Positions 1,056 to 42,508 of a stretch of DNA of 64,000 bases are shown here, in pieces. Position 1 is the stretch's first letter; the number at the start of each line of letters is the position of its first letter. A program made the translations under genes and the position numbers. Below the pieces are notes generated by a model. It had not been told where the DNA came from and made no database searches. It saw nothing but the letters and a program-made list of their open reading frames with translations. This stretch comes from Coffea arabica (Eukaryota; Streptophyta; Magnoliopsida; Gentianales; Rubiaceae): NCBI RefSeq assembly GCF_036785885.1, contig NC_092316.1, positions 50,415,001-50,479,000 on the forward strand. The letters are read 5' to 3'.

Positions 1056-1164
1056 GGATACGGGGCAGGACCGCTCCTGAACGGTCCCCTCACAAAATCG
1101 AACGTGAGGCGAGAAATGGTCCAAGTCAGCAAGCCTTCAGGTGAGACCAAAACGACGACGTTCT
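1056..1164 (+). repeat. Left terminal inverted repeat of the large MULE
   Basis: It aligns with the reverse complement of 21491-21615. It lacks about 14 bp present in the right end (the segment between CAGGA and CCGCTCCTG), so the longer terminal hairpin of the right end is reduced here to GGACCG..CGGTCC (1069-1088). Confidence 0.8.
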
Positions 1165-2970: not shown

Positions 2971-5900
2971 ATGGCACGAATAAGAAGCGAAAGACGGAAC
3001 AAGAGTTTAGGCGAAAATGAAGGAATAGATGCAGCGGGTACAAGTGAAGTTAGAGAACCAGTTCCACCGTTGAATGCGTGGATGAAGTTTAGGTAATATT
3101 GATGTTTATTGAAAATGATAATCATGAGTAGAATGCACAGCTAATTGGTTAATATTTAATGTGTGTAAGAAGGAGTATCAAAGCACCGTTCCAGCGAAAG
3201 GCATTAAGATAACAGAGGTATGTATTAAGAACTAAATAAAGCATTAATTGTTTATAGTTGTTGCACGGTAAAAGTAAAAAATACTATTAGAAAAGGGTTA
3301 ATATCAGAAACCTCCCTTGAGGTTTCTTTTAATCACACCTAGCACCCTCCATGTTTTCGAAATCACACTTAGCACCCCTGCAATGACAATTTTGGTGTCA
3401 TTGTCAGCCTCTCTATTTCAAAATGATAGGAAAAAAATGAATTGTAGGATAGAGACTTTATTTTTGTTCCACCTGTACCCATAGCCCAAAAAGAGTTTAT
3501 TTCCTAGTAGCAAAACAGGTCTAAATCTTGTTTTTTAGTATATGTAAATGATCATCTAATAAATAATAGGATAGCATCAGGGTTGTAACACAATTACATA
3601 TCTTCATACACCATGGAGTATGCTGATATGTATCGTTTGGAGGGATGCGAGGTAGGGAAGGGTGTTAGATCAATCATCCTTGAATAATGTAACACGTTTT
3701 GAACATTCTGTAATTTTATGTAAGTTTCTTGTATATCTTTACAATAGATTGCGTCTCTGCTATTAAGGTTTACAAATAATTCACGTAGAGTTACACATTA
3801 TTTAAAAAATGTTACATTGATCCGAACGGGGATAAAAAATATGAGTATGGATTCTCATAATGGCAGCAATAGTTTCAGAATGTGGTTGTAGTTGTAAATA
3901 AACTTGCTCTTCCATATTTGGGAAAATGCGGTCGTATAAATAGCTTTTTTCTGCATCGTAGTGGAATGGAGTTTGTAAGTTATTAATATTGCAATCCTCA
4001 GTGTCTAGATTATTGCTTGTAGATGGTGTTTTGGAAACATATGGATTGCGATACCCCATTATGTAGTAGAAATGGCTCGCTTAGGGTATATACTCATGAA
4101 TTCCCATCATCTTTGAACTACGTTTAGATTGTGTTATTATGTAGTTAGGAATTGCGATTTTGGCAATGGCACTATGTCCATTGCCAAAAGTTAACATTAC
4201 TGGAAACGGCATGACTAATTAATATTAAGGAGGGGGATAAGAACAGTTGTTAGATCAATCATCCCTAAATAGTGTAACATTTTTTCATCATTTTGTAATT
4301 TTGTATAAACTTCTTGTACATCCTTGCAACAGAAGTGTGATAAGTTGTTAGTGTAGATATGGGTATAGTATGTAATAATCGTACTTGTGTTGGTAAGTTT
4401 TACAGATAATTCAATTAGAGTTACACGTTGTACAAAGAATATTACATAATTCAGAACAGTTATCAGCAGTTTGTCAAAAGAATTTTTTGATTTTTTTTTT
4501 ATCTTTTTTGGTATGCAGTTTTCTTCTTAGTTCTTGTAGTGGAGTATTGGTCTCTGTATACTGCATTGATTATTTTTAAATTATGACCGTTCAACTTTGG
4601 TTATGGTATAACAATACTTATCCGAATTTCTTTTTGCCTCTGAACGAGTTAAGGTTGTTTGTGGCATGGGATAGATGTTGGTGATTTTTTGATAATTTCT
4701 CACCTTTTAATTAGGAGAACCTGTCACATCCTACTGTCGGGAATGCTATGTGTTATTTCAAAAACTTGGGGGATGCTACATGTGATTAGAACAAACATTA
4801 GGGGAGGTTTCTGATATTAATCTGTGTTAGAAAATATTGAATTACATATAACATGATTCACGATTATATGCATCCAATGCAGTATAATAAAATGGTTAAA
4901 GCAGCATATGATAAGTTGAGCGAGGAAGAAGTCCAGAATCGAAAAGAGAACTATCGAAAAGAGAAAGAGGAGTACAAGAGAGAAATGGCGCGTCTTGGAA
5001 AGACTATACCGGGAAAACAGCAGATTAAGGTAAGCACAAGGCATGGATGCTGAAATAGGTTGTTACGTGATAATGTGTGTATATCTAACTAGTTTTTGTG
5101 CTTGAACTTAATTATAGAATCCGAAGTACACCATTCGTTGTTCACCAAATCAGATGGTTTGGTTAGCATCGAACATTGATGAAACAAAAAAACAGCAAAT
5201 CAGAGATTTGGGGTTTGGAGGGCTGCTGGAAATAAAGTGTCGCTCCATTCCGAACGGCATAGCAACCTGGCTGATCGACAATTTTAATCTTACACTAAGT
5301 AGCTTTCAGCTACATAGAGATGGTGTGCTACCCTTAACAGCAAAAGACATCAGTTTAATCCTTGGAATCCCAAATGATGGCCCCTTACCAGTTGAAGATA
5401 CTGATAGCAGTGAGGGTGGAGATTCTGGACCAAGTCGCCGAACATACAAATGGAAAGAGCTGCCCGAAGAGTTAGTAAGCATGAGCGGTGGGGACGAGTT
5501 CAAGCGACTATTTGTTGCATTTGCTTGTGGATGTCTATTAGCTCCAACTACACGGGCTGAGCATAAAATTCGGCTATGGGATTGCACGAAGGTGGTTACT
5601 GAGGTGCTTTCATTAAATTGGGCAGAGTACGTTAGAAATATACTATGCAATAGGATATTAGAAGTACAGAAGAAAAGCGAAAAGCAGCACCAATATGTTG
5701 GGGGTTGCATGTTTGTCCTACTGGTAAGTTTAGTTATGTGATATTGAAAGTTAGTAAGTGATCTAAGTAGTAGGGGATGCAACGAAAAGAAATTTTAAGT
5801 TGGCACATGAAGGTTGTTTATGCATAGTACTTGAATTGCAGGTGATATAATTGATGTGTCAGTGTCTAATTATATTGCAGGTGCATTACCTTGATCGAGT

Positions 5901-8900
5901 GACAATACTGAAGCACAGAGTGGCTCGAGTTATACCAAGAGTAAAGGCATGGACAGATGCTTTAATTTCAGAACGGGATGCATTGGAGATCGATAATCTC
6001 GGAGGTTATGGAAAAGGAAAACTAGTAAGAGCGATAACTTTTTTTTGATGGATTTTAACTTACTAGTTTGTATGTATAGGCCACACATACCATGTACTTA
6101 TGAAGTGATGGTTTGATTTTGTTTTCGTAGATTGGGACGCATGAAGAAGAAGAGGCTGAATCTGGTGCACAGATAAATGAACTACCCCCTGAACTAGTTG
6201 GAATAATGATGGACAGCGGGCATCATGATATCGCAGTAAGCTGCCTAACTGTTAAAACTGATACTTCATTATGCGCTATTGTTGCTTAAGTTAAAGTTAT
6301 ACATTTTTTATAATTTGAACAATCATTCGTAAGCAGCCACAGCTACGTAACTTAGGAAAGTAATCTTGTCAAATACAATCATTAAGTATTGACGTACAGC
6401 ATACAATCATTTTGCATTTGCTATGTTTGACATACAAAATCAGAAAAGTTAGTTGTAAATCGAGTATGGGACAAAGAAGTAGTTAAGCTTTGTAAAAAGG
6501 TGGGAAGATTTTTCGAACGCCGATCACAAATAACACTAGTGCTCAGCTATAATCTAGCTACATTTGAAACGCAGTGTGCTCATGTCGTTTGTTCCATATT
6601 TTATGACAGAAACGAGAGAGAAAAAAAATTCTCGAATATTATTCATGCAAAATACAAAGTTAATTGTATACTTCATGCAATTCGTGTGCCAAATACAGCT
6701 TAGTCATTTTCATGTAACTTTTCTTGAAAAATATTTCACCACCTGAAAGCGAACAGGCAGATTTCATGAGGTCCATGAGTAAATAATACAGATCAATGCA
6801 TAATATGATGAATTCATCTGTTCAGATTAAGTCGAAACGGGCTATTCATTGTGGTTTGTTAATGTATAAGCAGGTTGAGCTTTCAGAAGTGTACAGTATG
6901 ACAGTGAGTTGCCAAAAAAGGATATTAAATATTGCAGAATTGCTGTGTTCTCATCCTAGGGCCAAAACAGCAACAACAGAGGTCGTTTCAAACGAAAAGC
7001 AGAAACAGAGGATGTCTGATTCAGAGCAAATACATCTTGATATGGACAGTGAAGATAATTCGGAATATCAATCCGCAGAAGCAGGAAAGGACTCCAATGC
7101 TGACCATGACGGTGATAGTGAAAAAGAACAAGATGCAGGCGGTAATGATGATGACATTGGGACCTCAACCAGAGCAATAGATGAGACTAAACCAACAAAT
7201 CGACATTCGATGGGGCAGACGATAGTTGGAAAAGAGCAAAGTGGGAGAACCACTGATGGGAAAGAGGCAGAAAATGTTGGCAACACAAGTGATGGAAAGG
7301 ACATTTCAGACAGTGTGTACAAGTCAAATGATACCCCAACAATCATCCAAGATGACTCAACAGGTCCCTTTCGAATTGAGCATCCTTTGGATCTGCCACA
7401 CACACCGAGAAGATTGCGGTCTTATAGTCGCAAAAGGAAAGGTTAGTGAACAAAAAAACAGTGTCTTGAATTTGATGTACAAGTACTCACAAATTAAATT
7501 TATTATGTTGTGTTCAGAAGATAGAAACCTTGATAGTATTTAGTCTGAATTAATAGTTACATTTGAGTTTTGCATATGAATTGAAGAATTCTTAGCTGAT
7601 CGGTTAAACGTTATTGCAATGTGCTGCCCCATTAAATTTTTGTATAACATGTATACCTAATCATTAGGGTTAATATCAGAAACCTCCCTTGAGGTTTCTT
7701 CTAATCACACCTAGCACCCCTCATGTTTTCGAAATCACACTTAGCACCCCTGGAATGACAACTTTGGTATCATTGTCAACCCCTCAATATTTTTGTTCCA
7801 CTTTTACCCTCCTTGTGAACTCTATTTATGTAACTCACATCCCTTCAACTTTAGTAACACTACAATATCGTGCCTGAACAGCGTAACATGTTTTGAACAT
7901 TTTGTAATTTTATATAAGTTTCTTGTACATCTTTATAACAGATTGCGTTTCTGTTATTAAGTTTTACAAATAATTCACATAGAGTTATACATTGTTTAAA
8001 AAATGTTATATTGATCTGAATGAAGATAAAAAAAATGTGAATATGGATTGTCAAAATGGCAGCAATAGTTTCAATATGTGGTTGTAGTTGTAAATAAACT
8101 TGCTCTTTCATTTTTGTGAAAATGAGGTAGTATAAATAGCTTTTTATGCATCCTAGTTGAATGGAGTTTGTAAGTTATTAATATTGCGATACCCTATTGT
8201 CAAGTAGAAATGGCTTGCTGATGCTATATACTCATGAATTTCCATCATCTTTGAATTACTTCTAGATTGTGTTTTATTCACTTAGGAATTGCAATTTTAG
8301 CAATGGCACTATGTCCATTGCCAAAAGTTAACGTCACTGGAAACTCCATGACTATTTAATATTAGAGAGTGGGATAGGAACAATTGTTTGATCAACCATC
8401 CCTAATTAGTGTAACATTTGTTGAATATTTTATAATTTTATGTAAACTTCTTGTACACCATTACAATAGAAGTGTGATAAGTTGTTAGTATACATACGGG
8501 TCCAATATGTAATAATCGTATTTGTGTTAATAAGTTTTATAAATAGTTCAATTAGAGTTACACTTTCTACAAAAAAATATTACATAATTACAGAATAGTT
8601 TTTCATAATTTAGGGAAAACCTCAAGGGAGGCTTTCGAAATTAACTCTACATAAATAGAGTTCACAAGGAGGGTAAAAGTGGAACAAAAATATTGAGGGG
8701 TTGACAATGATACCAAAGTTGTCATTCCAGGGGTACTAAGTGTGATTTCGAAAAAATGAGGGGTGCTAGGTGTGATTAGAAGAAACCTCAAGGTAGGTTT
8801 CTGATATTAACCCCTAATCATTATTCTGTCAGTGTGAACTACATAACATTTTGATTTTCTGATGTATTGATATCTGCAGCAGTTGTTGAAGATGAGAATG

Positions 8901-10820
8901 AGCACAGGCCAGCTCGGGCAACGAAGAAAAGCAGCATGCTACGGTCAGCCGAGTACGTTCTGCCTTCGCACGTGACAATCAGCATTTACGACAAAAGGAT
9001 CGCTGCATTCGCGTGGGAGGTACATAAGAATCCCAAGTAAGGTTCCTATATATTTATCATACGATTATGAGGTTATAATACAGGCACTTAAGGATTTATT
9101 GGTGCCACTATTTGTTAAATGCATCCCTCCAGTCCATTTGTAATCAATTCATGCATTTTTATGCTCTTCGAATTGGAATTCAATTTAGTCTAAAATGGTA
9201 TCAATTGTAACCATAAGATTGTAACATTTCTCCCGAATTACGTTTCTTGAACATCCTTTTTGTAATGAAGAACTAGCATAAGGTAGTAAAATTGATGAAT
9301 ATTAGGGAATGCATGGTTTATTTGTTGGCTGAAGTTGAATGTAACGTTATGATAAAGCAATGACTTTTTGTAGAACATGGTTGCTAACAACTGCCAATTT
9401 TAAAGTAACTCTTTGTCTGACTTAATGACAGGGAGACACTCATTCAGATGTTCCAACTTTCTCTAACACGAGATGACCTCAGGACTCTTTGTGATGGCAT
9501 GCATGTGTCGACTCGGGTTAGGCATATTTTTTCAGCCCGAGAAATAATACATTGTGTTGGTTTGGTAAGGTAAAGCGATACGTTTTCCAAATGGCAGTAA
9601 CTAAACCCATTCTGCTACTTGGCTGTAACTGTACGCAGGTCATGGACATATTTGCCAGGCATATAAACTGGGGTGGGGAAGCTAGTACAACCAGTAGACT
9701 CAAGCGCTATATTGTCGAGCCTATAGCAATTGTAAGTATTAAAATTATTGTTAGATAATGACTACCATTCAATAAAATATTATCAAAGTTTCACACAAAT
9801 GCATGTACCAATCTATTACCCGAGTCAGTGAAATTCACCCTAAACATCTATATCCCCTTGTACTGATTGCTAACAGGATGACATTTTGAATCTTCGAAAA
9901 TTCGAAACACAACCCGATGACATCCTAACTACTAAGCTTATGAAGTTGTTCAAGATCCGCGGGCCTGATAAAGCGGCTGATCCATCTAAGTGTCAGTTGG
10001 TATGGATATAACCTTATCGTAACTATTGATGAGACATGCTATATATTGGCAAGTTATTGGTAAACTACTCTATTATGCTCGTGCTGATGAAATTTTTTTT
10101 TATGCTGCAAATTCTTGTTCCTGTCCTCGTAGACAGCTGCTGGTTTGTGTACTCCTTCCATGTCTCACAACGCATAGTGCATCTGCTAGACCCTAACCCA
10201 CAACAAGCAAAGAGCAAAGATATTACAGTTCTAAAGCGCTTGGTATGAGTGTTTATAGGAGTTGTTCATTAATTTTTATCATACAAATAGTTACTTGACT
10301 CTGTTTCATGCAGCAACGTGCCCTCGGACTGATAATGACAGCTAAATTTGGGATGGAACTTGACTTTGCAACTTTCAAACTCTTAGTTGCTGATGTACCT
10401 CATGTGTCACCCGATCGCATGTAAAATATGGGATCTTTCAATACCACCCCGATACCTTACTATTGCAATGTGTACTCCAATCACTTTAGTATATTGTCCA
10501 TATTTCTGAGTCACAATATGTTGATCTGTACAGGTTCAATAGTGGAGTTTTCACGATGACCTTTCTTGAACACTGGAGTGGAAGATTGGCTGTGCGAATT
10601 ACTGAGGTGTGATCATATTCTATAACTATCTGTTTTTCTACTTGTGGCAATAAAACGGGTAATAAATACCTCAATCCCCGGGTTTACTAATACAAGAGGT
10701 GAAATTGTGCAGGAAAATGTTGCGAAATATCGAATTATCTACACCGCGCGGCTTTGTAGTTCGGAGCATAATACAAAGTTTCAGGACACTATTGTCGCCA
10801 CGGTTGGGAGTAAACAGTAA
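2971..10820 (+). CDS. MULE-borne HMG-box / plant-mobile-domain-like / Ulp1-like protein, 15 predicted exons
   Basis: Predicted exons: 2971-3092, 3170-3217, 4883-5029, 5118-5723, 5881-6024, 6131-6235, 6874-7441, 8880-9036, 9432-9516, 9639-9731, 9877-9999, about 10053-10242, 10314-10420, 10534-10606, 10713-10820. From exon 2 onward the GT..AG junctions keep one frame. Exons 1-3 read as an HMG box (PVPPLNAWMKF .. KGIKITE .. YDKLSEEE .. KEEYKREM), without the usual core Trp. Exons 4-6 resemble the plant-mobile-domain-like region of MULE Ulp1 genes (LGFGGLLEIKC, PLTAKDISLILGIPNDGP). Exon 7 is an acidic, low-complexity linker ending in RRLRSYSRKRKG, a possible nuclear signal. Exons 10-15 have a C48/Ulp1 layout (VDSCWFVYSF, IVHLLDPNP, FNSGVFTMTFLEHW), but His is replaced by Cys before the Trp and DCG by NSG, so protease activity is unlikely. 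Odd: exon 1 ends in phase 2 while exon 2 needs phase 0. The exon 12 start is uncertain. Introns 2 and 7 each hold a MITE. Confidence 0.65.
3295..4825. mobile_element. MULE-type MITE, copy 1, inside intron 2 of the HMG/Ulp1-like gene
   Basis: It begins GGGTTAATATCAGAAACCTCC and ends in the diverged inverse (GGAGGTTTCTGATATTAAT). The flanks are ATTAGAAAA (3286-3294) and GTTAGAAAA (4826-4834), an 8 of 9 match, as expected for an aged 9 bp MULE duplication. Its interior (about 3690-4420) is closely similar to 7885-8545 in copy 2. It is non-coding. Confidence 0.8.
7667..8813. mobile_element. MULE-type MITE, copy 2, inside intron 7 of the HMG/Ulp1-like gene
   Basis: It begins GGGTTAATATCAGAAACC and ends GGTTTCTGATATTAACCC. 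The terminal inverted repeats are about 165 bp (7667-7835 against 8640-8813). The 10 bp CTAATCATTA flanks it on both sides (7657-7666, 8814-8823). It is younger-looking than copy 1 because the ends are nearly identical. The mirrored short reading frames in its two arms are a by-product of the inverted repeat. Confidence 0.9.
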
Positions 10821-12460: not shown

Positions 12461-14143
12461 AAGGGCGCAGTTGTACTTTTATATCCCACAACAACAAAAG
12501 TTTGTTCATCCCCCTTTCATTATCGTTTACACTTTTCATTGTATTCCACTTCACACTTCCCATTTCATACTACTGAAAGGTGGCAATGAACCCGAATACA
12601 AAATTTATTATTAGTAGTCTTCCACCCCTCTCAAAGTTGGTGTACAGGACCAGAACAAGAAGACAGCTGGAAAATTTATTTTATTGTCTGAATTGATTTG
12701 AAATAATTCAGTAGCAGCATGTGACCCATCATGATGCTTCCACATTTGGGACGACATTGCTGTCATGTAAACGATTAGAAACAGCACGTAACACGTATAT
12801 TCACTGTCGGTACTACAAATCTAACGCTTTGTATGTAACGAAACTTATCTGACATGGTTCAAACACTGCATGTGAGTCTACAGTCTCTTCTCCCGTGATA
12901 TACTAGTTGGCTTCATATGCAAAAATGTCGATCTCACTATTTTAATGAGATATTCGAGAATGCCTCGCTACCGAATGTTTTGGGGTTCGAAACGATCATT
13001 GTAACTATTCCCAATAGACACTTAATAAAGTGTTTAAGAAATTTAATGTGTCAGTGGGAGGAATTATCATTTCTGCCAAGGGCAATAGCACAAACAAAAG
13101 AAGAGGAAAGTTTCATCGAATATTAACTAGTTGTATTATCACTAGATTGTAACATCAGGGAATATCTAGTTGGAATATTATTCAGTTTTAAATAGAGGAG
13201 ACGAAAAGTTGCAGATTGCAAATTCATTAGTTATAATTAATTGTAACATACACTCAACTGGTTGTAATTCAATCCGTACATAGTGAAATGTACAGGCCAC
13301 TGATGTGTAACTCTTTATCCACGTGACTCTTAATATTGGTGTACAGGTCATTTCATGACAAAAGCTGCATAATTTGTTTTATTGTCTGAACAGATGTGAC
13401 ACAGTTCAATGGCATGCATTGAACTCTACAGCTTCCACTGCCAGGACGAAATTGTTTGCCCTGGAATGCATTGAAGTGTGATATTTTAGCACATTGTTCT
13501 TTGTTGGCGGACTATAAAAGGGCGCGGGTGCAGTAGTATATCCCTCAACAACAAAAATTTTTTCGTCCACCTTTCATTACTGCACAAACATTTTTCATTT
13601 TAAATTACTTCACACTTCCCATATCATTCTACTGAAGGGTGGCAATGAACTCGTGTCTGAAATTTATTATTACTATTCTTCAACCCGCCTCTAACTTCAA
13701 TTGCAGTGTCATCAATAGAGGGTTCACACAAAAATCAAGTTCTTGGTTGTCAAATAGCAGCCAGTAGGTTGTACGATGTTCGAGAAGATCTCGCTAATTT
13801 AATGAGATGTTCGAGAAGGCCCCGCTACATCAATTGTTTTGGGATTCGAATCGATCATCTTTATGTTCTCATTAGACACTTACTAAAGTGTCTAATGAAA
13901 TTTTATGTGTTGGGGGGAGGACTTGTTGTTTGTGCCAAGTGCAATTGCACAAACAAGAGAAGAGGAAAGGTTCATCAGATATTAACTAGTTGTAGTATCA
14001 CTTGTTGCAATATCAGGAAATTTCTAGTTGTAATATCACTAGTTTTAAGTAGATAAGATGAAAAACTACCGATTGCAAATTCATTAGTTGTAATGAATTG
14101 TAACATATATATAACTAGTTGTAACTCAAAATGGTACATGGCG
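12461..14143. repeat. Two diverged copies of a long direct repeat in the MULE interior
   Basis: Matching landmarks: 'AAAGGGCGC' at 12461 and 13517; 'TATATCCC.CAACAACAAAA'; 'CACTTCACACTTCCCAT'; 'GGTGGCAATGAAC'; 'TTATTATTA.TA.TCTTC'; 'GAGATGTTCGAGAA'-like; 'ATTAACTAGTTGTA.TATCAC'. They follow in the same order in about 12461-13300 and 13517-14143, with a further partial match of 12640-12760 to 13340-13450. Open frames at 12917-13126 and 13706-14056 lie in equivalent parts but are not conserved as protein, so this is probably non-coding or decayed. Confidence 0.6.
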
Positions 14144-14860
14144 TAATCAAAATTTGTTGCATTTTAAATATTAGTTACCATACTTTCAAATTATTTGTCC
14201 CAACGAAGTATCATGTTCTTCTGTGAAACTGTTACTTATTATGTGGTCACGTGGAACCAAGCCGAGCCGCCAATTGTAAGTTCATTTCTGTACTGAAGGA
14301 GTACTACCTATTGAAGTGCTTGTAGTACAATCTGTAATACTTATCATTAATACAATTATAAACAAATTGTCTAAGTTTTAACATACAAGCAAATGACAAG
14401 GTGCCTGTACAAGCACATCAATAAGCGGTAACAGCTTATTAATTTCTTGTAACGTACATATGCTGGTTGCAACTTCTTGTTACACTTGAAAGGTAAGGTG
14501 ACTGACGTATAACTGGGTATTCACGACCCAATGGTTGTTGGAGTACAGGTCATGATCCAATCGAATTGAACCATTATTCCATCCACACACTATACATTTG
14601 ACCAAATGTTGAGTTTATTCTCTCGTTAATAGGTGGTTGTCATGGCTTCATCAACTCACCCAGGAGTACTATCCTGTGGAGAACAGCATGAAATGACACA
14701 GCAAGCAGTTGGTCAAGTTGCCAGAAGAAACCATTTACTATGCATGGTCTGAAACAGGTGCTCCGTTAAAAATTTCTACCTCTTTTTTTCTCCCACCTTT
14801 TTCTTTATCAGTAGATCCATTCTTTCATCCAACCAAAAAGCAGTAGCTATCAGCATAGTC
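14144..14860. other. MULE interior with recurring TTGTAAC motifs
   Basis: No gene is recognised. 'AACAGCTTATTAA.TTCTTGTAACGTACATATGC' (from about 14429) recurs at about 16326. A short frame from 14642 (ATGGCTTCATCAACTC..) ends after 36 codons. Confidence 0.4.
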
Positions 14861-15432
14861 ATGCAATCCACAAACGAAGGATCTCATACAAGCTCACCAT
14901 CAAATGTTCGGCAAAAAAGACAGAAAGTATCGTTGGGTCCAACAAATGCCATCAGCCAGTACGAAACACCAGACGAGAGGATTTTATATGGTATCAAACG
15001 CGAGTTCAAGAATGCTCCGCTTAACACCGACAACTCTCTGGGACTAGCTGGTCACATTTTTAAAAATACCGTCAATAATCATCTACCGTGTGGTTATTCC
15101 GTTATGAACCATGAGCCCATATGGGAGCCTGTTCGTGAGCGAAAAATGGAATTAGAGGTACTTTGTCGCTGGCATGGCCTCCGCGTCCCGAGAACAAGGT
15201 CGGCGGATCTTATTATAGGACCACAAGCCAATGATGCAAGCGTATTACATAGACTACAGCGAGAAGTTATGCAGATGAAGCGTAGGCTTCACAGGTTTCA
15301 CAAGATCCAAGCCGCAAAAAAACATGGTATTGGAAAACAATTTGATGTTTAGCACATTTTAGCAGATCTCATGCTTATATCTGATCCGGACCTATCTGAC
15401 TTTACTGAATCAAGCGACGATGACTTTCAAAG
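14861..15432 (+). pseudogene. Unrecognised MULE-borne ORF (163 aa) with an in-frame stop and open continuation
   Basis: An ATG at 14861 opens 163 codons ending at TAG 15350-15352. The same frame stays open for 26 further codons into an acidic segment (SDPDLSDFTESSDDDFQ) that ends at a good donor (AAAG|GTACAT, 15432/15433). The protein is Ser/Thr-rich at the start (RQKRQKVSLGPTN, a possible basic nuclear signal). A central part follows (DERILYGIKREF, GYSVMNHEPIWEP), and the end is basic and heptad-like (LHRLQREVMQMKRRLHRFHK). I do not recognise the family. Inference: the TAG is a nonsense mutation in a longer exon, or the true C-terminus is short. The ORF lies between the Ulp1-like gene and the transposase, so it was probably carried as MULE cargo. 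Confidence 0.45.
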
Positions 15433-16791
15433 GTACATACCCCATTGTCTAATGCATGACGGCGTTCCCAGGTGTTGTATGGGATACAACTGATAACAAG
15501 GGATGTAGTTCAATGTTTGTTAGGGTAGCGGTAAAACTATACTCATTATAATCTCTATTCAAACAAATTGCTTACCATATTTGGATATTAATCATGCCTG
15601 TTAAACAGTCGTAACTAGTTGTAACGTAACAGTAACATATCCCTAACTGGTTGTAATCCATTGTGTACTGTTCGTTCTTCCTTTTTTGTTGCATTGTAAA
15701 ACTTCATTTTAACGTTATAAATTAGTTCTCCAAGAAATCATTTTCTTATGCGCACCTATTACCAACATGTGGTCGTGACCTGACTTGACCATAATTTAAT
15801 TAACCTAAAAACTTGTAATACCAATTGATGTGCCTGTGATATATCATGTCAATGGTGCACTAAATTCGTCAAGCGATGCAAAACAAATGGCCTAAATAAT
15901 AATATTTTATAAAAATAGCCAAATAATAATTCGAATTTATCATCATAACAAAATCAAGACAATTTAGACTTTAGATTGTGTTATCCTATATATCGTACCT
16001 TTGGCGGTGCGATCTATGCCAATAAATATGTTATTAAGGTATGCAATTGAATGTAGTAGAATGGTATACATATCACGATAACCATTCAACTGTTATGGTC
16101 GATTTAGTGAAAAATATCCGATCACAAAAAATACGTTCAATTCTATTGTAAAATTGTTACTTCAATTTTCTACCAACTTTATAATTTTCTAACAATTTTA
16201 TACAACCCAATACAAACTATTGATGACTACTAACATTAGATGCGATTACAATTGTAATCCATTTGTCTAAATTTGAAAAGAGTGAAACATCAATGGTGCC
16301 TGTATAATCTCGTCAATAAGTTGTAACAGCTTATTAACTGCTTGTAACGTACATATGCAGCATTCTCAAGTTGGGATAACCACTTAATGTCTCGTTCAAA
16401 ATGTATAGTTACACATCATTCATCAACCTCATTTTGGGGGGAGGCGACGTCAACGCGTAGTTGCAATCCCTGTGTGTTATTTCTTCCCTGAAATGCGTAA
16501 CGATGGCAAATCAGCAAATATTATTAATAAAACATACGATTAATGATATACGATGTCCAAGTCTCCAATTAATAACATTACATAAATATGTGCTGTAACG
16601 ATAAAAGTTTATCACCTGAGGTGATGGTGCAAATACATGATATGCATCAACATCACAGTGTGTTGAAATTGCCCCACGCTCCTCCTACATTATATAGTAT
16701 AAGTAATCGACTGTCAACAAATCATTACCAGTGCCTATATTGCTCACTTATAAAGTTAAATTGGACTAGGCATTATAACAAAAATGATATA
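15433..16791. other. MULE interior, non-coding
   Basis: AT-rich with scattered TTGTAAC/TGTAAC words (for example CTAGTTGTAACGTAACAGTAAC at about 15611). No gene is recognised on either strand. The open frame at 16588-16803 overlaps the predicted last exon of the opposite-strand transposase and has no family resemblance. Confidence 0.4.
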
Positions 16792-19636
16792 TCAGACCAT
16801 TAAGACATCTCTGATGGAGTTATGCTTGAAAAAAATAGAAAATTTGGGATGCATCCATTCTGTAGGGACACTTGCAGGAGGCCCCTGATTAGCCAAACGG
16901 TGCATCTTGAAATAATAAAAAATAATACGTTATTAAAGCGAACATACGTTAACTACATAATTTGCATGATTTGACAGCTTTCGGGAGCCCACCGTTACAA
17001 TTAAAGAAAAAAAGGTAGCTCTACTACATGAACAAGAAGGTTTTATTTTAACTACTAAATGCATGCATACCGTTTGACTTTCATCGGTATCGGGAGCAAC
17101 AACATTTAGAGGGCCATTCACTGTCTGACTCATTGAATGCGTCTACAAGTTTCGTATGGGCCAAATCATTGTATAAGACAAACAAAATACATATATCATG
17201 AGGGATGACGGCCGTAACAACATTATCACACAATGTAACATCAATATAACTATTTATGCTGTTAGAAACATCCAAATAAAAGTAAGAGTCATGTCCATTT
17301 TATACTAACCGAAACAGAGTCAGTAGATGAACGGCATCCCATAAACATGTATTCCTCAAATGAAACCGATGTCGGCTCCGATTCTGAGACCTACAGTATT
17401 GACACGGCAATAATATTATTTCATAATGAATGTTACCTAAACTTTAGTTAATAGTATAACAATAACTTAGTTTTAACATAAATGTTCCCCAAGTACCAAA
17501 ATTTGATCCATACCGTAGTCTGTGTAGTTCTTGATAATCTAGATTTTCTTTTTACTTTGTCAAATTTATCGACCCAACTTCGCATCACTTTACTTTTCTT
17601 CCCACCGGCTCATTTTTTAATGCCTCTTGCGACTACTGCCTCCCCCATTTCATTTACAATTTCAATTTTATCTCGTTCCTCCATATTCAGATTTTTTTGA
17701 TTTTGCAAAGGTTGCTCTTCACTTTCTGAGAGGAGGAGCTCAACTCTCTTTGACAAATCGGATATGACAGTGATTGCTACTTTGCTGGTGTCCTCCGACA
17801 TTGCTGCTCGAGTTGCGACCTTAATCATGGCTGGAGCGAGCTCCCGATAACGAGTTGAAATCATGACTTTAGGATCAGCCACAACTTCCTGTCCTCGCCG
17901 ATCAAAACAATCTCCAGCCCGAGCTCTTTTTGTCCATCGCCTTTTAATGTATTCAGGAGGAATTATTTTTATACCCACGGTATCAAACACCTTCAACGCG
18001 TGCCCACATAAAATGCCTTCATTCTCGTATTTTTTGCAACTACAACGTACACTTAGATCATTCCGATTGAATACTACTGTTCTTTCAGGTCCTCCATCAT
18101 ACCTCATGACCGCAAACTCCACAAACATCGCTGCATCTTGTTGTCTCAATATAACCATAGCTGTTGACTCGCCATATTCATTTTGGAATGCAACAAATAC
18201 GGTTGGTGAATACGTCTCTAATGCATGCACAAGCATAGGTGTTTGCCTTAACCCTATCATGGGGAGCTTTTGCCTCATTTCATATTCTGCGATCAGTTCA
18301 TTTTGTCTCTTTTCATCAACCACCCGATTGAAATGTCTAAAGAACTGCACAAGGTCATGATCCAGTTTCAAATGATTTTTAATTGCTGCATTTAGGCTTT
18401 CGCTGAGTTGGGTGCTTCGCATTCCCGCGGTCCATCTTTCTTTCATCATGCACCTTGCCCATTTATCACGAATTTTGTACAACTCCGAGAGCCATTCATT
18501 ATTTTCAAGATTGTGTTTCTTCACCATCGCCTCCCACACCCTATTGAATTGTTCCACTTCTTCAAACTCATACATGCAGGCACCAAACATGTATGGAAGA
18601 TCACTATTTTCCTTGTAGTGATTGCCAAGATGTTTCATAAAATTACGCCTTATGTGAAACGTACATAGACCGTGAAATGTTTCAGGCATGACAATTGAAA
18701 GAGCGGCTGCCATGGCGTGATCTTGGTCGGTTAGTATGGTATTTGGATGTTTTCCGCACATTGCTTCTAAAAATGTACCAAACACCCATTTGAAAGAATC
18801 TATCGTCTCATCATACATAAGGGCAGCACCGAATATCACAATTTGCCTATGCTGGTTAAAACCCACAAATACTCCAAGTGGCCGGTATTCTTTATTTGTT
18901 TTGTAAGTTGTGTCGAATGTGACTACGTCTCCAAAAAAGTTGTAGTCAATTAACATTCCTGCATCAGCCCAAAAGATATTCGTTATTTGTTCTTCACAGT
19001 CTAGCTGAAGGATGGATTCTCGAGTGTTTGCTCTTGAAAATAATTCAGCATGCTACTTGCTTCTCCATATTTCAAGCTCCTTTTCCGTCTTGTTCGAAGA
19101 TATCGTTTAAGATCATCCCGAGTATATCCCACATTACCCATCCCACCTGCTTCCGTTCCCATAAGCTCATGGCTCTGTTTCAATGAAAGCCCAGCATCCT
19201 CGCTTATTTCAGCTTGGAATTCTTGAGTCACACTCACTTTTCTTTGTGATGGCATCATGTGAGCACATTGAGCAATGTGCAACTCATGATTATGCTCTAA
19301 GACAAGGTCATGCACACGGTACTTCATTGTCCCTCTAAACAACACGATAACCATCTTAGCTCCACACCCTGTTTTCGTCGGCGCTCGTGTCCTCTTTGGC
19401 ATCACATCACTTTCGTACTTGCGTTTCACACCTTCCTTGCAGCAACTATATCTCCTAGACGTGGTCATGCCGTCTTTGTCTTTATTCAGATAGTCTTTAC
19501 GTACACTGAAACCCATTTTAAAGGCATACTTGTTGTAAAACTTGTACGCATCCTCTTCACTGTTGAACTCCATTCCTAATTCAGGGGTCCCATTTTCTGC
19601 CAATTTGCTGCAATCCATTACTTCTACCCCTGCCAA
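16792..19636 (-). pseudogene. FAR1-type MULE transposase (MURA-like), frameshifted
   Basis: Read from 19636 leftwards. The first part (211 aa, 19636-19001) has a FAR1/WRKY-GCM1 zinc-finger domain: GMEFNSEEDAYKFYNKYA at residues 21-38, C65/C66, C91, H115-N-H117. The second part (18956-17610) holds the MULE DDE core, with D15 in TFDTTY, D77 in TILTDQDHA and a likely E186 in LSESLNA, plus a SWIM finger C305-S-C307..C317-G-H319 for DNA or protein contacts. Between them, after ENPSF, the frame shifts. The other frame reads QLDCEEQITNIFWADAG before LIDYNFFGD, so about ten bases (or another number not divisible by three) are missing near 19008. A stop after GIKK at 17610, with GGKKSKVMRSWVDKF in another frame beyond it, suggests a second lesion. 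Likely C-terminal exons follow near 17515, 17393-17310, 17140-17072 and 16900-16792 (ANQGPPASVPTEWMHPKF). Catalytic residues are intact, but the gene is broken. Confidence 0.85.
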
Positions 19637-21490: not shown

Positions 21491-21615
21491 GGAACGGCAT
21501 CGTTTTTGTGCCCTGCTTCAGCCTTGCTGACTTGGCTCATTTGTCTCCTCACGTTTTTTATTGTGAGGAGACCGTTCAGGAGCGGTCGTCTGAGGACCGC
21601 TCCTGCCCCGTATCC
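21491..21615 (-). repeat. Right terminal inverted repeat of the large MULE, with terminal hairpin
   Basis: It is inverse to 1056-1164. The outermost part holds GGAGCGGTC and GACCGCTCC arms (about 21579-21604) that can pair as a hairpin, followed by TGCCCCGTATCC at the extreme end. A similar end structure occurs at 61286-61323. Confidence 0.8.
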
Positions 21616-40914: not shown

Positions 40915-41212
40915 ATTGTTGAACCAACACATCAGCGAATGTGGAAGAGAATTCCAGGCAACAAGTTTATTCAAAGAGGGAGAAATTTAGAGAGGAAAAT
41001 TTTTTTTTTTTAAGAGTATATGTAATTAGTACTTCCCTGCTACTATCATTTATTCTTTCTTTTTTTTTTTAAGTGTGAATAAGTGAGTAGCAAGTCCAAC
41101 AAAGAATTTAATTGGAGGATCTACCAGTACCACCTAGTCTAAGTCTACTACTTCCTACAGCTAATATTGTTTCCTCATAAAAATCAAGAACTTCTCTCAA
41201 ACAAAAGAGGGC

Positions 41213-42508
41213 TTGGATAGACTGAGTGAAAAAGGAGAGAAAGAAGTCAAGAAGTCTTCTCATGTGATCATGGAAGGAGGCGATGATCATCATCTCCACC
41301 ACCACCACCACCGCCCAAACTTCCCATTCCAATTACTCGAAAAGAAAGAAGACGAATCAGCCTCCTGCTCCAGCTCCGGCGCCGCGGGCTTCCCATCTCT
41401 AGCCATCTCCTCAGCCGATAACACCAGCCAAAACCCTTCAAGATCAACCTCTTCGAGCTTACAAATCTCAGCTGAGCCGTCCAAGAAGGCGCCACCGAAA
41501 CGAACTTCGACTAAAGATCGCCACACCAAGGTTGACGGACGAGGGAGACGTATCCGCATGCCAGCGCTTTGCGCTGCTAGGGTTTTTCAGCTAACGAGAG
41601 AATTAGGCCACAAGTCCGATGGCGAAACGATTGAGTGGCTCCTACAACAGGCCGAGCCCGCCGTGATTGCAGCCACCGGAACCGGTACAATCCCTGCAAA
41701 CTTTACCTCCTTAAACATCTCGTTACGCAGTTCTGGCTCCAGCATGTCCGTACCATCCCAGCTGCGATCCTCGTACTTCAGTCCGAATTTTTCGATGCCA
41801 CCGAGGAGAAGCCTCTTTCAGGGCATTGGGCTATCGACCGACAATTCTCCGTCTACAACAACGTTGTTGAACTTCCAATCTGGCAATATAAACCCTAGTA
41901 GTATGCTCCAGGCGAAGCAGGAGTTGAGAGAAAACAGCACCCACAATACCCTAGATTTGAGTGATGCAGCTGCAGCAGCAGCAGCTGGAGAAGAGAGCCC
42001 TCTTGCCAGAAAAAGAAGAAACGACCAAGAACTCCAACACCATCAGCAGCAAAATATCGGCAACTATTTGTTACAGTCCAGTACGGGGGCGATGCCGGCC
42101 AGCCACGCGTCGATTCCGGCCAACTTTTGGATGGTTCAGGCGAATTCCAGTAATCAGGTTATGGGAGGCCATGACCCGATATGGACATTTCCAAATGTTA
42201 ATAATAGTGCCGCTGCAGCCGCTGCTTTGTATAGAGGGAGTATGTCTAGTGGGTTGCATTTTATGAATTTTCCTACCCCGGTGGCACTATTGCCCAGTCA
42301 ACAACTAGGTACGAGTAGTATTGGTCCAACCGGTGGCAGTGGTGGCGGCGGCGGCAATGGTGGTTTAGCGGAAGCTCAATTGGGAATGCTGTCGGGGCTA
42401 AATCCATACCGCTCCAGTGGTGGCGGGGTGTCGGAATCACCGGCTAGCGGGTCCCACTCGCAGCACCACGGCGATGATCGGCATGACACCACAAGTCACC
42501 ATTCATGA
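41213..42508 (+). CDS. Class I TCP transcription factor, TCP14-like, intronless
   Basis: 431 aa from the first ATG. A second in-frame ATG (M20, 41270) begins [18 protein letters not shown], which matches the start region of Arabidopsis TCP14, so either start is possible. The TCP domain (about residues 96-155) has the class I basic region [17 protein letters not shown] (101-117), then helix-loop-helix ([39 protein letters not shown]). [19 protein letters not shown] follows. The C-terminus shows [31 protein letters not shown], poly-Ala, poly-Gly and a His/Asp-rich tail. It is a nuclear DNA-binding protein for GGNCCCAC-type sites. Arabidopsis TCP14/15 promote cell proliferation and germination and act as immune hubs; this job is inferred by similarity. 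The gene is complete and intact. There is no near neighbour, and long CT tracts lie upstream. Confidence 0.93.

Follow-up and report, generated by a model that had tools for sequence, protein, structure and literature searches.

Here, we report that a large Mutator-like element (MULE), a member of a large family of such plant transposons, carries its accessory gene at positions 2971-10820 of the window, the 64,000-nucleotide stretch of Coffea arabica DNA analysed in this work; this gene lies opposite a FAR1-MULE transposase and encodes an N-terminal HMG box. Following this HMG box, the product very probably contains a conserved middle domain, an acidic linker that includes a basic patch, and a Ulp1-like (SUMO-protease-like) tail. 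The reading we favour, to which we give slightly less than an even chance, is an accessory protein of the VANC/Kaonashi kind whose HMG box would bind DNA. The openly licensed PMC literature searched yielded no account of Kaonashi/Ulp1-type MULE genes with an HMG box, in line with the sequence-only reading, which knew of no such combination.

The element spans positions 1056-21615 (about 20.5 kb) and is bounded by terminal inverted repeats at 1056-1152 (+ strand) and 21504-21615 (- strand), which pair over two segments, of 84 nt (80%) and 36 nt (78%). A 9-bp target duplication was sought at the flanks, and CCTTTGT alone was found at both ends, with the right CCTTTGT also covering the repeat's final base. 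The FAR1-MULE-SWIM transposase occupies 17610-19636 on the - strand, where it is split into two overlapping frames; in many other copies it is a 733-aa open frame. Pfam matched the window's transposase to MULE (PF10551, E 5.7e-26) and FAR1 (E 2.3e-21), as well as to SWIM at E 8.4e-4 with 19.3 bits, slightly below the cut-off of 19.6. The MULE transposase domain identifies the element as Mutator-like and bears out the MULE setting proposed from the letters alone. Among the matches listed, an antisense FAR1-MULE transposase lies downstream of the accessory gene in at least 89 of 126 exon-4 copies in the genome, and one on the same strand in 2; for groups A, B and C, the fetched DNA itself also shows the antisense context.

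The accessory gene comprises 15 exons on the + strand. The HMG box starts near 3064 in exon 1 (2971-3092; PPLNAWMKFR), continues through exon 2 (3169-3217; KEYQSTVPAKGIKITE) and extends to about 4993 in exon 3 (4883-5029; YNKMVKAAYDKLSEEE...EEYKREMARL), as given by the spliced model and the HMG profile match, with the exon 3 junction TGCAG/TATAAT yielding ITE-YNKMVKAAYDKL. Exon 4 (5118-5723) carries the conserved middle domain, weakly PMD-like in profile comparison from about 5211, and the gene model places the end of this domain in exon 5 (5881-6024). Exon 6 (6131-6235) is followed in the model by exon 7 (6874-7441), which encodes an acidic variable linker with the basic RLRSYSRKRK at its end, and by exons 8 (8880-9036), 9 (9432-9564), 10 (9639-9731) and 11 (9877-9999). 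The Ulp1-like tail is found in exons 12 (10111-10242) and 13 (10314-10420) by gene model and Pfam and in exon 14 (10534-10606) by gene model, while exon 15 (10713-10820) includes the stop codon. Intron 2 contains an insert at 3294-4820, beginning AGGGTTAATATCAGAAACCTCCC, and intron 7 contains a related one at 7666-8813, as indicated by repeats shared between the two and, for the latter, by the spacing of exons 7 and 8 in other copies.

Besides its split transposase frame, the window copy is broken at the acceptors of exons 2 and 12, both of which read AA. Because the exon 2 acceptor is AG in 20/20 other loci fetched from group A, the window's own lineage, the doubtful phase between exons 1 and 2 can be traced to this acceptor; the sequence-only reading had recognised the phase problem and missed the break at two acceptors. 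Of 19 models, those of L009, L010 and L018 run through 15 exons with GT-AG junctions throughout and no stops, confirming that exons 1-3 are in frame with exons 4-15.

The HMG box proposed for exons 1-3 was recovered by profile search. The spliced N-terminus of the window type matched Pfam HMG_box with 24.6 bits (E 3.5e-5; profile positions 3-67 of 69), close to the cut-off of 25.4, and two distant group C copies exceeded this cut-off with 34.2 and 27.4 bits. Lower scores were obtained for group B (22.0 and 21.1 bits), group D (22.8 bits) and the whole 888-aa protein of L010 (18.7 bits), and a whole-genome HMG scan returned a group C exon, in L053, among 18 HMG matches, below the cut-off. When the HMG region was used for a profile search of the PDB, HMGB3 (1.6e-6), SMARCE1 (1.8e-6) and TFAM (1.4e-5) led the ranking, and the first non-HMG match had an E of 0.11. 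We regard the HMG box as real because of these near- or above-cut-off scores and the structures ranked first. A charged helical stretch resembling an HMG box by chance is barely credible: the tested group A, B and D copies do stay below the cut-off, but the match covers nearly the whole profile, group C copies pass, and HMG proteins head the PDB search. As in HMGB and TFAM proteins, the box spans almost the entire Pfam profile; unlike in these proteins, it is a single box on a transposon-encoded multidomain protein.

By position, the HMG exon lies at most 500 nt upstream of exon 4 in 126/126 copies examined in the genome (107/107 of groups A/B and 19/19 of groups C/D). The HMG box therefore belongs to the accessory gene, and a fixed domain order is supported. 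The HMG region is under purifying selection, with omega of 0.13-0.35 over nine non-independent pairs from six copies, and the anatomy is conserved over lineages in the genome, between which dS is about 0.8-1.5. These values argue against a recent host HMG-box fragment carried as a passenger in Pack-MULE style, even though capture of host exons is common among MULEs (PMC5418596 and PMC2528002, both in excerpt). The intron positions point the same way: the breaks in the HMG box of the MULE gene, placed by eye, lie near positions 12 and 27-29, whereas among the host HMG matches a single exon covers positions 1 to 47-49 in three homeologous pairs and the others break elsewhere. Recent capture from host HMGB genes was therefore rejected in view of conservation, dS and intron positions, and a passenger fragment is very improbable.

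The PMD/Ulp1-like architecture read from the sequence stood in its Ulp1 part and is weakly supported in its PMD part. PMD (PF10536) gave no Pfam match at E up to 10 in the accessory protein, including the 888-aa L010 protein, and the accessory loci were absent among the rows listed from a genome scan with PF10536 (117 of 2124 candidates scored). PMD identity by Pfam was therefore dropped. Comparison of the middle domain with same-genome PMD proteins by hhalign gave a probability of 12%, a P of 0.0025 and a score of 29.6, while eight column shuffles reached at most 19.3 and the reversed profile 16.3, suggesting that the middle domain is weakly PMD-like. The coffee elements thus resemble PMD-carrying MULEs as a MULE family with a possibly PMD-like, often antisense, domain (PMC6446971 and PMC5418596, as excerpted), and differ in that the accessory gene has no PF10536 match and a weak profile match at most.

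The tail was matched to Peptidase_C48 (PF02902, cut-off 20.7) with 23.6 bits in the whole L010 protein and 57.0 bits in L032 of group C. At the positions that we take to be those of the catalytic His and Cys of Ulp1, the window has C (exon 12) and S (exon 14), L029/L055 have S and S, L030 has H and N, and L032 has H and C. Among 20 fetched group A loci, the His position is C or Y in 17/17 readable ones and the nucleophile Cys position is S in 16/16. The catalytic His and Cys thus appear to be replaced in the window's lineage and kept in a group C copy. A tail lacking both residues would serve as a SUMO-binding module rather than for cutting.

A candidate target for the protein, (A/T)GTTACA, was picked post hoc by a k-mer scan; group A and a single diverged group B element are enriched in it in their non-coding DNA, partly in tandem arrays. 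In the window element, GTTAC occurs 58 times vs 30.4 in shuffles (z 5.5), at 4.40 per kb compared with 1.16 in the right flank, with one occurrence in 2667 nt of CDS and none in the transposase. Three more group A copies, related by descent, have 38 vs 13.1, 31 vs 10.9 and 33 vs 13.6. In the group B element L029+L055, most of whose DNA is not alignable to the window, GTTAC ranks first among 5-mers (55 vs 16.4). Motif-bearing arrays are present in both, as a 134-nt unit repeated 5.8 times in L029+L055 and as repeats of about 160 nt at 2154-2973 in the window, 5' of exon 1, with exact GTTACA at 2401, 2562 and 2722; the latter array holds few of the 58 sites. L030, a second group B copy, shows weak enrichment (9 vs 5.8, z 1.4), the count is 0 vs 3.0 in four short upstream stretches from group B, and group C shows no enrichment of GTTAC (rank 202), although the HMG box is present there. 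Replication of the motif beyond group A therefore comes from one element, L029+L055. The two nested inserts also bear GTTAC (11 vs 5.7), so the motif extends beyond the DNA of the element itself. In group C, GTACA is top-ranked in L056 and L033 and not in L032; L032 and L056 being one and the same element, this is a weak lead at most. The binder of the motif could also be the transposase.

Against the favoured reading stand the low sequence preference with which many HMG boxes bind DNA and the lack of a DUF1985 match. In this reading, the HMG box would bind DNA, the accessory protein would bind the element's own motifs, and the bound protein would open or demethylate these motifs, counteracting silencing in cis and in trans as VANC does for Arabidopsis VANDAL. 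By analogy, such a VANC-like mechanism is somewhat less likely than not. The short motifs bound by VANC proteins are located in tandemly repeated non-coding parts of VANDAL elements (PMC5735166, in excerpt), and recognition of the coffee element's own DNA may likewise be aided by its second gene. The sequence-only reading had instead suggested DNA bending for targeting or end assembly. The HMG box would then act as a transposition cofactor that bends DNA and brings the two termini of the 20-kb element together, a function provided in cis here and by host HMGB1 or HMGXB4 for Sleeping Beauty. The length of the element and the HMGB, SMARCE1 and TFAM structures at the top of the profile ranking, in which some HMGB1 entries are presumably RAG complexes, favour this view, as does the role of host HMG proteins as Sleeping Beauty factors (PMC10138897 and PMC7827188, in excerpt). 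However, the motif is found throughout introns and interior and not chiefly at the ends, and the middle and Ulp1-like domains would have no evident role, so that we consider a cofactor distinctly unlikely. The scattered non-coding motif fits VANC-like self-recognition at least as well as bending.

A somewhat better, though still unlikely, alternative concerns a host-like gene with an HMG box and middle domain, present as a pair at C4:67.2 Mb and C3:67.6 Mb, which might be the source captured by the MULE or a domesticated copy. Both copies, among those listed, have open exon-4 frames, the HMG score is 22.8 bits, no transposase lies within 26 kb among the matches listed, and no Ulp1-like tail was found in the 7 kb read. 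Against this stand the coverage of a single genome and the fact that the absence of a transposase applies to the matches listed.

The VANC/Kaonashi-like reading places the gene among known MULE accessory genes with clear differences. Like VANC of VANDAL MULEs, it encodes a MULE accessory protein, accompanied by a short motif enriched in non-coding DNA and partly in tandem (PMC5735166, in excerpt). In contrast to VANC, whose domains include DUF1985 according to the same excerpt, the accessory gene has an HMG box and another motif, and gave no Pfam match to DUF1985 or DUF287 in the 888-aa L010 protein. With Kaonashi (KI) MULEs it shares a Ulp1-like accessory gene on the strand opposite the transposase (PMC2528002, in part); Ulp1-carrying VANC genes are named KIU in a review (PMC13317346, in excerpt). 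Compared with Kaonashi and other Ulp1-carrying MULEs of Arabidopsis, melon, rice and grapevine, the coffee gene has an N-terminal HMG box, its transposase contains FAR1, and the catalytic His and Cys are apparently replaced in the window's lineage. KI-MULEs are described in the excerpts as non-TIR, whereas the window element has terminal inverted repeats.

How accessory proteins of transposons recognise their own element, in terms of target-specificity regions, is a question that the VANC paper, in the part available, leaves to future work (PMC5735166). Recognition is directly testable here, since the N-terminus has a named DNA-binding fold, a candidate motif is available, and the motif possibly differs between diverged lineages. 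The element would also be a transposon that encodes its own HMG-box protein rather than borrowing that of the host. A broader and rather unlikely extension, drawn by analogy, would be a class of MULE self-recognition proteins whose HMG box reads the motif arrays in the non-coding DNA of their own element. Protein and motif would be swapped as a module from element to element, the motif being (A/T)GTTACA in groups A/B and perhaps GTACA in C; this would be a second VANC-like anti-silencing design, with a pseudo-protease SUMO-binding tail.

The accessory gene (plus strand, 2971–10820) lies within a Mutator-like element (MULE) of about 20.5 kb, which is bounded by terminal inverted repeats at 1056–1152 and 21504–21615 (sequence GGATACGGGGCAGG...). 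CCTTTGT is present at either end of the element, but the right-hand one shares a base with the end of the repeat, so that the two ends show no clean 9-bp target duplication. The transposase is encoded on the minus strand at 17610–19636 and contains FAR1 and MULE domains, with a SWIM match slightly below the cut-off. Since it is split over two overlapping frames here, compared with a single 733-aa frame in many other copies, the transposase of the window is probably broken. Elsewhere, a long open frame at 41165–42508 resembles by motif what we take to be a TCP transcription factor.

The genome (1.198 Gb searched, the window lying at C7:50415001–50479000) contains further copies, which were grouped by exon-4 identity to the window: group A, 81% or more; group B, 55–80%; groups C and D, below 55%, with D being the pair at C4:67.2 Mb and C3:67.6 Mb. 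Fifteen exons were placed through comparison of the window with 18 other group A copies. In L009, L010 and L018, every splice site is GT-AG and the 888–889 aa frame has no internal stop, while the remaining 15 modelled copies each show a stop, a failed exon or a lost splice site. No stop occurs in the window copy, but two of its acceptors, at exons 2 and 12, are AA. For exon 2, all 20 other fetched group A loci carry AG, and the AA in the window accounts for the doubtful exon 1/2 phase of the sequence-only reading. Two related inserts, both starting AGGGTTAATATCAGAAACCTCCC, occupy introns 2 (3294–4820) and 7 (7666–8813). Because the latter is carried by only some group A copies, as judged from exon spacing, copies seem to have multiplied after its arrival.

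In 126 rows of the exon-4 genome search, counted by position regardless of strand, an exon-3 HMG match lies at most 500 nt upstream of exon 4 in 107/107 copies with an identity of 55% or more. The 19 copies below 55% yielded no upstream match with that query and 19/19 with a group C query. This survey of related MULEs places the HMG box, earlier read as fused to PMD-like and Ulp1-like regions, by its position as part of the accessory gene and not of a neighbouring gene. The box is spread over two exons in group C versus three in A and B. Omega was 0.13–0.35 for the HMG region (nine non-independent pairs of six copies) and 0.09–0.60 for exon 4 (non-independent pairs), with some copies containing stops.

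Profile searches agree with the HMG assignment. Against PF00505 (cut-off 25.4 bits), the window-type spliced N-terminus scored 24.6 bits (E 3.5e-5, profile positions 3–67 of 69), the whole L010 protein 18.7, group B copies 22.0 and 21.1, and group D 22.8; group C copies reached 34.2 and 27.4 bits, above the cut-off. A seven-copy profile retrieved 51 PDB sequences at E ≤1, led by HMGB3, SMARCE1, TFAM and HMGB1, with the best non-HMG match at E 0.11. An unbiased PF00505 genome scan included the group C exon at L053 among its 18 matches, with a score below the cut-off. Host PF00505 matches are paired on C15/C16, C5/C6, C19/C20 and C3/C4, contigs numbered up to 22 being large; from both features we presume an allotetraploid-like genome.

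The Ulp1-like tail was likewise recovered by Peptidase_C48 (L010, 23.6 bits; L032, 57.0 bits). Of the 20 group A loci fetched, 17 could be read at the His position, all with C or Y, and 16 at the Cys position, all with S. The respective residues are C and S in the window, S and S in L029/L055, H and N in L030, and H and C in L032. The middle domain had no Pfam match. When it was aligned by hhalign with eight PMD proteins encoded in this genome, P was 0.0025 at a probability of 12%, exceeding eight column shuffles and one reversal, which is no more than suggestive of a PMD-like domain.

An opposite-strand transposase match lies 4–25 kb downstream in at least 89/126 copies (73/93 and 16/33 in two subsets); among the matches listed, 2 of 126 have a same-strand one within 26 kb. 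The group C element L032+L056 shows the layout of the window, with a transposase identity of 59–62%. The element L029+L055, of group B, shares 93% DNA identity with the window over 6.2 kb including much of the transposase (L055 3776–10000 versus window 12766–18992), while exon 4 of its accessory gene has a dS of 1.4–1.5 versus group A. With the transposase half so similar and the accessory gene next to it so far diverged, elements appear to have exchanged the accessory module. The group D loci L031 and L047 (C4:67206922–67213922 and C3:67643677–67645097) form a gene pair with 99.2% identity over 1421 nt, containing the HMG box and middle domain. The Ulp1-like tail was not found within the stretch read, nor a transposase nearby among the matches listed; a host gene or domesticated copy is possible. 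A decayed relative, L034 (C17:5558797–5561796), has lost most of exon 4 but retains exon 5 as well as exons 2 and 3, which are HMG-like.

The motif GTTAC, picked after a k-mer scan, has 58 occurrences in the non-coding DNA of the window's element (13,177 nt; 4.40 per kb), where shuffles give 30.4 (z 5.5). By comparison, the right flank has 1.16 per kb (49 vs 54.1), and the motif is found once in coding exons and never in the transposase. Three further group A copies, related by descent, are likewise enriched. In L029+L055, mostly not alignable to the window, GTTAC is the first-ranked 5-mer (55 vs 16.4), a partial replication. Both elements have motif-bearing tandem arrays of unlike units. The array in the window lies upstream of exon 1, has units of 160 nt and contains only a few of the window's GTTAC sites; the one in L055 comprises 5.8 units of 134 nt. 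Several results count against the motif: it also occurs in both nested inserts (11 vs 5.7), its enrichment is weak in L030 of group B (9 vs 5.8, z 1.4), it is absent from four short group B stretches (0 vs 3.0), and group C shows no enrichment (rank 202 among 5-mers). GTACA has the strongest enrichment of all 5-mers in non-coding L056 (27 vs 8.5) and L033 (23 vs 8.7), a pattern not seen in L032, and may be a separate target motif in group C.

According to PMC5735166, the non-coding DNA of VANDAL elements has tandem repeats with short motifs to which VANC proteins bind, leading to methylation loss; in a review, VANC genes carrying Ulp1 are named KIU (PMC13317346). The element resembles VANDAL, as described there, in layout, whereas its accessory protein lacks DUF1985 and is therefore not filed as VANC. 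The main rival holds that the protein is a cofactor bringing the element ends together. Owing to the VANC/VANDAL-like layout, we favour self-recognition by analogy. No report of an HMG box in such MULE accessory genes was found in the openly licensed papers searched, and as far as these show the combination, seen here in one plant genome, would be new. Through this HMG box, the accessory protein would recognise its own element.
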